Assembly (NCBI RefSeq): GCF_000002515.2
Contig: NC_006042.1
Span: 496,001 to 560,000 of the forward strand
Reading direction: 5' to 3'
DNA: 64,000 nucleotides
Source: Kluyveromyces lactis
Taxonomy: Eukaryota > Ascomycota > Saccharomycetes > Saccharomycetales > Saccharomycetaceae
Shown: piece by piece, positions 33,272 through 36,355 of the stretch
Layout: the number at the start of each line of letters is the position of its first letter
Position numbering within the stretch: the first letter of the stretch is position 1
The notes under the pieces: generated by a model
What the model was told of the DNA's origin: nothing
Databases searched by the model: none
The model's input: the letters and a program-made list of their open reading frames with translations, nothing else
Position numbers and translations under genes: made by a program

Positions 33272-36200
33272 ATGGCAGGTGCATTGGAAAACGCACGTAA
33301 GGAATTGAAAAGAGTAACCCTTGAAGACCATGAGGAGAGTGAATATGGTGCTATTTACTCTGTTTCTGGTCCTGTGGTGATTGCAGAAAACATGATTGGA
33401 TGTGCCATGTACGAATTGGTTAAAGTTGGTCATGACAACTTGGTGGGTGAAGTCATTCGTATTGATGGTGAAAAGGCTACAATCCAAGTGTATGAAGAAA
33501 CTACAGGTGTTACTGTTGGTGACCCTGTTTTAAGAACTGGTAAACCATTATCTGTCGAATTGGGTCCAGGTTTGATGGAGACAATTTATGATGGTATTCA
33601 AAGACCATTGAAGGCCATTAAGGATATCTCTCAATCTATCTATATTCCAAGAGGTATTGATGCTCCAGCTTTGAGTAGAACTATCAAATGGCAATTTACT
33701 CCTGGCAAGTTCAAAGTAGGCGACCATATCTCAGGTGGTGATATTTTCGGTTCCATTTTCGAAAACTCTCTTTTGGATGACCACAAGATCTTGTTGCCAC
33801 CAAGAGCAAGAGGTACTGTTACATGGATTGCTTCCGCTGGTGAATACACCGTTGATGAAAAGATTCTAGAATTGGAATTTGACGGTGTCAAATACGATTA
33901 CTCCATGTATCACACATGGCCAGTGCGTGTTCCAAGACCTGTCACCGAAAAGCTCTCTGCTGACTATCCTTTACTCACCGGTCAAAGAGTCTTGGACTCT
34001 TTGTTCCCATGTGTTCAAGGTGGTACCACCTGTATTCCAGGTGCTTTTGGTTGTGGTAAGACTGTTATTTCTCAATCATTGTCTAAGTACTCCAACTCTG
34101 ATGCAATCATTTACGTTGGTTGTTTCTCTAAGGGCACTGAAGTAATGATGGGTGACGGTAAGGATGAATTGATAGAGAACATTCAGGTAGGCGATGAAGT
34201 AATGGGTAGAGATGGACTTCCAAGACAAGTTGTTGGCTTACCAAGAGGTCATGATGACATGTACCAAGTTACCGAAAAATCAGAGGACAATGAAACCGCC
34301 AAGATTAGTTTCCAATGTAACAGCTCACACAAGCTAGTTCTTGTCACTCCACAAGATATAAGACTAACAGAGTCTAAGGAAAAGGTTACCGTTGCATTCA
34401 ACAGATTGGCAGACATTTCAGTGGGAAATGGTACTGAATCACGCACTGTTAGACTAGTTGAAAGAGCTGAAAAATCTTTTGCTAATGCTGAAAGTAATCA
34501 AGCTATCATAAATGCTGCTGAATTTGTCACTACTATTGACACGACATCCATTGAATGGACTTTGGAGGCCAGGGATATGTTGTTGGTAGACTCTTCCATC
34601 CGTGAAGTAACTCAACAGTTGATAAACCCTGTGTTGTTGGAGAAGGAACACTTAGCAGGCGTCTTAAAATCAAACGATTTCCAATCTTCTTTGGCTCCAC
34701 AATTTTCGTATCTGTTGGGTGCTTTCGTTGGCTCCTCCGGTAAGGACAACTCAGAATATCTTCAACAACTGTCTGCTCAATTCGATAAAAAGATTGTTGC
34801 CGAAAAGTCTATCGATGTGCAATCTAATGGGAAGACCGTTGGCACTGCTAGCATTGTTATTTCTCAAGAGCCAGTTCAAGAAAATAAACGCAGAAAGGTC
34901 GCTCAAGTCAGTCTTGTCTCCAAGATCGTTCAAGAATCTTTCTCTAGCGGCATCCCATCGTTCATGATGTCCGAAAACATCAATGTTCGTGAAAGTTTCT
35001 TGGCAGGTATTGTAGACTCTCAAAACCAAAAGCTAGATGACACAGTCGCTCTAAAAACACTATCAGTCAAGACACATGACGGTATTGCGAGATTGGCGCG
35101 TTCTTTAGGTATCCGCGTTTCCGGTAAGAAACAAAACCAAGAATACACATTGACTCTTTCAGGTGATGCTTTGAAGAGTGTTTCAAATTGGACCTCCACT
35201 TCGAACATCGAAAAGGTTGATGTAATTCATAAGGCTCAACCTATCTCTTTCGATTTAGAAAAAATTGAGTCTGCTGATTATTTTGGTGTCACTTTAGCTG
35301 AAGAATCAGACCACAAATTCTTACTATCAAACATGACTTTGGTTCACAACTGTGGTGAAAGAGGTAACGAAATGGCTGAAGTTTTGATGGAATTCCCTGA
35401 ATTATTCACAGAAATTAGTGGTAGAAAGGAACCTATCATGAAACGTACCACATTAGTTGCAAACACTTCTAATATGCCTGTCGCTGCTAGAGAGGCCTCC
35501 ATTTACACTGGTATTACATTGGCTGAATACTTCAGAGATCAAGGTAAGAACGTTTCTATGATTGCCGATTCGTCTTCTAGATGGGCTGAAGCTTTGAGAG
35601 AAATTTCAGGTCGTTTAGGTGAAATGCCTGCTGATCAAGGTTTCCCAGCATACTTGGGTGCTAAGTTGGCCTCCTTTTACGAAAGAGCTGGTAAGGCTGT
35701 TGCTTTAGGTTCTCCAGACCGTATTGGTTCCGTTTCTATTGTTGCCGCTGTTTCCCCAGCCGGTGGTGATTTCTCCGATCCTGTTACTACATCAACTCTT
35801 GGTATCACTCAAGTGTTTTGGGGTTTGGACAAAAAGTTGGCTCAAAGAAAGCATTTCCCATCCATCAATACTTCTGTTTCTTATTCCAAATATACAAATG
35901 TCTTGAACAAATACTACGAAAAGAACTATCCAGAATTCCCAGTGTTGAGAGATCGTATGAAGGAAATCCTTTCGAACGCTGAAGAACTTGAACAAGTTGT
36001 CCAATTGGTCGGTAAATCTGCTTTATCCGATGGTGATAAGATTACCTTAGATATTGCTTCTTTGATCAAAGAAGATTTCTTACAACAAAATGGTTACTCT
36101 ACCTACGATGCATTCTGTCCAATTTGGAAGACTTATGATATGATGAAATCATTCATCTCTTACCACGATGAAGCTCAAAAATCTGTATCAAACGGTGCTA

Positions 36201-36355
36201 ACTGGGCAAAGCTATCTGAAGCAACGCGTGATGTCAAGCATGCTGTCTCTTCATCGAAATTTTTTGAACCAAGTAGAGGTGAAGAGGAAGTTCATGCAGA
36301 ATTCGAGAAATTGTTGACCAATATTCAAGATAGATTTGCTGAATCAACCGATTGA
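33272..36355 (+). CDS. VMA1: V-ATPase catalytic subunit A precursor containing an intein
   Basis: The 1027-residue precursor has N-extein 1-283, intein 284-693 and C-extein 694-1027. The joined exteins give 617 residues, the exact length of mature S. cerevisiae Vma1. Subunit A hydrolyses ATP in the V1 sector to acidify the vacuole. The P-loop GAFGCGKT is at residues 257-264, about 20 residues before the insertion, so splicing is needed for a working nucleotide site. The insertion point (YVG before, [10 protein letters not shown] after) is the same as that of the S. cerevisiae VDE intein. Flanks are highly codon-biased; the intein less so. Identification is certain. Confidence 0.98.
34121..35350 (+). 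mobile_element. VMA1 intein (VDE/PI-SceI family), splicing-type with degenerate homing endonuclease
   Basis: A 410-residue in-frame intein (S. cerevisiae VDE is 454). Splicing residues look intact: Cys1 in CFSKGTEV, block B CNSSHKL with its histidine, a block F DHKFLLSN element, and the C-terminal VHN followed by extein Cys694. The LAGLIDADG endonuclease domain is still recognisable, [10 protein letters not shown] at precursor residues 480-489 and [10 protein letters not shown] at 576-585. Serine 488 and glutamine 584 occupy the positions of the two catalytic aspartates (D218 and D326 of PI-SceI). I infer active protein splicing but no homing cleavage. Confidence 0.93.

Follow-up and report, generated by a model that had tools for sequence, protein, structure and literature searches.

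The VMA1 gene in the window analyzed here, a 64,000-nucleotide stretch of the Kluyveromyces lactis genome (contig NC_006042.1, positions 496,001 to 560,000; positions below are counted within the stretch), is interrupted by an intein that keeps its splicing residues and has lost the active site of its endonuclease, a conclusion supported by alignment to the Saccharomyces cerevisiae VMA intein and within a panel of 79 VMA inteins. We consider it very probable (roughly 0.85) that this is the known K. lactis VMA1 intein at the VMA-a site, a splicing intein with a dead LAGLIDADG endonuclease; in this reading the loss is probably old, and part of the endonuclease remnant probably serves as a scaffold. 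The element and its dead endonuclease are already known, and the original prediction made from the DNA, of an intein able to splice that has lost both endonuclease aspartates, is accurate and ordinary rather than new. In the parts of Butler et al. 2006 (PMC1508164) used here, 17 VMA endonucleases are covered, of which four are active, two undetermined (C. glabrata and D. hansenii), and the remaining 11 inactive, citing Posey et al. 2004. The endonuclease of the same species and gene as ours is inactive there by subtraction from these lists and is not listed with both aspartates, which only two Torulaspora endonucleases retain among the inactive ones. The criterion of aspartates 218 and 326 was in print by 2006, in an account that, in those parts, comes without a fold model and without a link to Nakaseomyces.

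Splicing and active-site residues

Vma1 is encoded by the forward-strand open reading frame 33272-36355 (1027 aa), a precursor uninterrupted by stops, and the intein occupies 34121-35350 (410 codons) in a frame continuous with both exteins. It lies between YVG and CGERGNE of Vma1, the insertion site of the S. cerevisiae intein VDE (PI-SceI), which places it in the VMA-a (VDE) family. The parts of the precursor are as follows, with the basis of each in brackets.

33272..34120, + strand: N-extein of Vma1, 283 codons (open reading frame, alignment, Pfam)
34121..34357, + strand: N-terminal part of the Hint domain, intein 1-79, with Cys1 and block B His70 (PI-SceI alignment, Pfam Hom_end_hint)
34358..34633, + strand: equivalent of the DNA-recognition region (DRR) plus linker, intein 80-171 (strain comparison, PI-SceI domain limits)
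34634..35218, + strand: LAGLIDADG endonuclease domain, intein 172-366, catalytically dead as judged by sequence (alignments)
34733..34735, + strand: Ser codon TCC, intein 205, at the position of PI-SceI D218 (alignment of 79)
34787..34903, + strand: stretch predicted without strands, predicted local distance difference test (pLDDT) below 50, intein 223-261 (fold prediction)
34946..34948, + strand: Ser codon AGC, intein 276, at the position of PI-SceI K301 (alignment of 79)
35021..35023, + strand: Gln codon CAA, intein 301, at the position of PI-SceI D326 (alignment of 79)
35096..35110, + strand: ARSLG segment, intein 326-330 (conservation among inteins without either aspartate)
35219..35350, + strand: C-terminal part of the Hint domain, intein 367-410, with His-Asn at its end (alignments)
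35351..36355, + strand: C-extein of Vma1, 334 codons and stop, first residue Cys+1 (open reading frame, alignment)

Homology to known VMA inteins spans the whole element: phmmer aligns intein 1-410 to residues 1-454 of PI-SceI (1dfa, 454 aa) with E 3.6e-56, and Pfam scores are 274 bits for Hom_end_hint (cut-off 32.1) and 83 bits for Hom_end (cut-off 21.1). The intein is 44 residues shorter than VDE (410 vs 454), as the original prediction stated. Every residue expected of a splicing intein is present, and the 79-intein alignment and the PI-SceI alignment agree on them: in PI-SceI numbering the K. lactis intein reads C1, N76, H79, S218, S301, Q326, a gap at 403, H453, and N454 (in its own numbering C1, H70, S205, S276, Q301, H409, and N410), with Cys+1 at 35351 and an open frame throughout. 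The alignment to other yeast VDE inteins, which had been named as the check on the claim, places no aspartate at either catalytic position, and the Ser and Gln found there are also what the phmmer alignment gives, with VGSS opposite IGDG and VDSQ opposite IDSD of PI-SceI. Two ways in which the aspartates might merely be shifted in the alignment can be rejected: the Asp that follows block C at a distance of five residues aligns with an Asp that is not catalytic in PI-SceI, while the one in LAGIVD occupies the D324 position. Beyond what had been predicted, the positions of K301 and K403 of PI-SceI, which we take to be the catalytic lysines, are likewise substituted or missing (Ser and a gap), although the alignment is less sure there than at the aspartates, and Asn stands at 403 in two of the 13 inteins that keep both aspartates. 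The element is not a mini-intein, as an endonuclease domain of 195 residues is still present.

An endonuclease still active with unusual active-site residues is very improbable, since none of the four catalytic residues is present, each being substituted or missing, the predicted fold has no sheet in the first endonuclease half, and inactivity is implied in the cited parts of Butler et al. 2006 (PMC1508164), even though the fold is largely kept in the prediction and the divergence between strains resembles that of intact pairs.

Frequency of the loss among VMA inteins

A protein search with full Vma1, the intein being taken as a region, gave at least 44 relatives among 7993 scored candidates, and a search with the C-extein was taken to its best 120 of 7995; the intein alone returned four relatives, probably because of the length limits of that search. 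As both candidate lists were capped, the resulting panel, 79 VMA inteins in which both junctions were located, samples clusters and does not amount to a full count of the family. Outside it stand P0027, a VMA intein behind IYTA that the junction pattern missed, and P0001 and P0002, in which the right junction was not found. Both aspartates are kept in 13 inteins of the panel, one in 28, and none in 38, with a minimum of 16 changes between kept and lost at position 218 and 15 at position 326 on the intein tree. Because 38 of 79 inteins have neither aspartate while C1 and H79 are present in 79/79 and His-Asn in 78/79, nuclease loss with the splicing residues kept is, on these sequences, common in the family.

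Two observations on the panel stand apart from this result. The shortest of the 79 inteins has 311 residues (P0085, in a Vma1 of 935 aa), with most of the first endonuclease half gone and both LAGLIDADG helices and ARSLG retained; it is of interest because, according to the parts of Butler et al. (PMC1508164) used here, reports of allelic VMA mini-inteins were lacking up to 2006. In addition, the residue two before the insertion site (Val in K. lactis, codon 34115-34117) is Cys or Thr in 8 of 53 intein-free Vma1 proteins (YCG, YTG, or YTA) and in 1 of 80 intein-bearing ones (P0027, YTA), the 80 being P0027 and the 79 panel rows, for which the junction pattern allowed only Val or Ile there; these may be altered homing sites.

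Possible constraint on dead endonuclease cores

The 13 intact inteins share 31 invariant endonuclease columns. Nine of these columns are conserved in 36 or more of the 38 inteins that have neither aspartate: G213, R315, E316, D324, and S356 in 38/38, and A320, G321, L357, and G358 in 37/38. Hint columns are kept at the same level in 29 of 33 cases. Within ARSLG, S is found in 38/38, L and G in 37/38, R in 32/38, and A in 31/38. Neighbors of the active site decay (G217 is kept in 22/38, G219 in 24/38, and K301 in 28/38), and K403, which is not invariant even among intact inteins, is kept in 10/38. On the intein tree these 38 inteins are scattered over 18 separate groups, so the conservation of the core is not peculiar to a single clade. 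These near-invariant positions favor a structural role for the dead endonuclease core, in support of the earlier suggestion that the remnant now serves splicing or folding: that suggestion gains ground for the family and is unproven for the K. lactis protein itself.

The alternative is plain decay, in which nothing constrains the endonuclease part and it is still there only for want of the rare exact deletions compatible with splicing. This is a plausible though somewhat doubtful account. Several observations count for it: 22 of the 31 columns fall below 36/38, and, in the parts of Butler et al. 2006 (PMC1508164) used here, dS/dN (synonymous to nonsynonymous divergence) is low for inactive VMA endonucleases, and the S. 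cerevisiae VMA intein still splices after its endonuclease has been exchanged for a linker by engineering (in its account of Chong and Xu). The first and last of these also count against a structural role. The same paper gives a dS/dN of 1.82 between K. lactis and C. glabrata in the endonuclease motifs. Against plain decay stand the nine near-invariant positions and the comparison of strains described below.

The fold alignments covered 70 of the 79 inteins, that of the window included. In the predicted K. lactis fold the Hint domain, the pair of LAGLIDADG helices, and the endonuclease's second half are kept and the sheet of the first half is lacking; over intein 223-261, strands are predicted for the homologue from Z. 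bailii, which retains both aspartates. It could be objected that the weak prediction of this first-half stretch reflects a poor alignment. The description of the intein as a late stage of the homing cycle is sound in outline, and the missing first-half sheet agrees with it. A late stage in the sense of plain decay fits less well, as the endonuclease diverges no more than Hint between strains (6/195 vs 5/127) and the nine core positions are nearly invariant in the 38 inteins.

Comparison of two K. lactis strains

The closest protein among the listed matches, P0005 ('Vma1 [Kluyveromyces lactis]'), differs from the window at 0 of 617 extein and 25 of 410 intein residues, with no indel. The differences fall in Hint (5/127), DRR (11/63), linker (3/25), and endonuclease (6/195), so distributed that the endonuclease differs from the DRR (Fisher test, p 0.0003) and not from Hint (p 0.76). 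The ratio of endonuclease to Hint divergence for this pair is 0.78, and none of the 25 cherries (sister pairs) on the intein tree has a lower one, although the counts are small; among cherries with neither aspartate in either row, the remaining eight give 1.54-3.24, as plain decay would have it for eight of nine such pairs, and it is the K. lactis pair, with its low ratio and no indel, that speaks against decay.

The low divergence of the endonuclease could also reflect recombination or a patch of recent shared ancestry rather than selection, a possibility that we place just short of even. In its favor, 14 of the 25 differences are clustered in intein 80-171 and none lies in 224-303, and intein 207-262, which has no predicted fold and should vary freely, differs at only 1 of 56 residues, which speaks for a patch of shared ancestry no less than for selection; nothing decisive counts against it. 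On protein data alone, constraint and such a patch cannot be told apart.

The window holds the only match to the intein at E ≤ 0.001 in its own assembly (10,729,447 bases, seven contigs), and DNA relatives of the intein were found in none of the prokaryotic genome contigs, viral contigs, and plasmid collection searched.

Ancestry of the K. lactis intein

The closest grouping of K. lactis in the intein phylogeny, with support 100/91, is with P0068 (C. glabrata, Ser/Gln at the two aspartate positions), P0056 (N. bracarensis, Ser/Lys), and P0055 (Ser/Lys). The group remains at 99/92 without the motif columns and has a support of 98 in the SH-like approximate likelihood-ratio test (SH-aLRT) when five divergent rows are removed. 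Because all five rows of this K. lactis-Nakaseomyces lineage carry Ser at 218, the first aspartate appears to have gone before the lineage divided, and an old lineage with such a loss is the simplest reading of the sequences. Its Hint+DRR distances (1.753 for K. lactis-C. glabrata and 0.673 for C. glabrata-N. bracarensis) and the extein distances for the same two pairs (0.256 and 0.097) both stand in a ratio of 2.6, which fits inheritance along with the hosts. The ratio of Hint+DRR to extein distance is 6.8 and 6.9 for these pairs and 2.9 (0.888/0.311) for P0075 and Z. bailii P0098. Taken together, this suggests that the endonuclease loss is old, was probably inherited vertically, and is shared with the Nakaseomyces inteins.

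Some points weigh against this ancestry. Quick trees of the single partitions recover the group with weak support (SH-aLRT 81 for Hint+DRR and 27 for the endonuclease part, HEN), the K. lactis and Nakaseomyces stems are both long, and by path length some outside rows are closer to K. lactis than is C. glabrata (P0008 at 1.73 vs 1.93). The HEN distances (3.222/1.486) give 2.2, not 2.6. Ser at 218 is found elsewhere in the panel, and the Ser common to K. lactis and Nakaseomyces could be convergent.

The extein tree comprises 78 intein-bearing and 49 intein-free rows, P0055 being too short to include. It places the K. lactis host with the intein-free P0047 and P0048 and with P0049, whose intein is a different one (these five rows have support 98), and places Nakaseomyces among rows that include the S. 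cerevisiae-type P0075 (support 87). P0049 (a Vma1 of 1053 aa) combines Kluyveromyces-type exteins with an intein of the S. cerevisiae/Zygosaccharomyces lineage; set against the intein-free P0047 and P0048 of the same extein clade, it points to intein turnover among close hosts. A single intein common to Kluyveromyces-type hosts, with K. lactis and P0049 together on the intein tree, is rejected (approximately unbiased test, p 0.0004), the pair having been picked after the trees were seen.

Codon use was compared with a set of preferred codons. Their share in the intein, including the dead endonuclease part, is 0.63-0.67, against 0.725 in the exteins and 0.43-0.52 in four nearby genes, a level near that of the exteins and as expected for long residence in a highly expressed gene. 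Yet third-position G+C is higher in the endonuclease part (0.41) than in Hint and exteins (0.31).

Discussion

In the explanation we favor, that of a splicing intein with a dead endonuclease, Vma1 would be made as a 1027-residue precursor from which the Hint part, using Cys1, the block B His, His-Asn, and Cys+1, would cut out 410 residues and join the 617-residue subunit (1027-410, the spliced length originally predicted). With substitutions or a gap at each of the four catalytic positions, there would be no homing, and the loss is probably old and common to the Nakaseomyces inteins. Part of the endonuclease, chiefly the LAGLIDADG helices and the ARSLG segment, probably stays because it supports the intein fold, the sheet of the first half having eroded. 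A stronger form of this explanation holds that the endonuclease was dead before the Kluyveromyces/Nakaseomyces split and that the LAGLIDADG core has since been kept by selection for intein folding or splicing, so that a formerly selfish nuclease would now be an obligate chaperone-like scaffold for the intein's own splicing domain; we consider this form unlikely.

Known systems share some of these features. The C. glabrata VMA intein (P0068, 415 aa) has the same site, belongs to the same supported clade, and has the same Ser/Gln pair, which a 2016 review (PMC5056185, the part used here) also gives for its blocks C and E; it differs in having only about 30% identity in aligned endonuclease columns (53/178) and Arg at the K301 position, where K. 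lactis has Ser. PI-SceI shares the insertion site, Hint fold, and domain order but is an active endonuclease with D218, D326, K301, and K403. The archaeal PhoVMA intein, as described in the part of PMC8966425 used here, also has a degenerate endonuclease that retains its architecture, but at the VMA-b site and with 17% identity over 274 aligned residues.

According to the same parts of Butler et al. 2006 (PMC1508164), the endonuclease domain is often lost from Prp8 inteins and kept in VMA inteins, although in most of the latter it is dead, and the value added here is a testable form of the question in the literature of why this is so. The nine core positions and the natural 311-residue reduction in P0085 name the pieces whose role matters for a scaffold. 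If the stronger form of the explanation is true, it would explain the rarity of mini-inteins among yeast VMA inteins.
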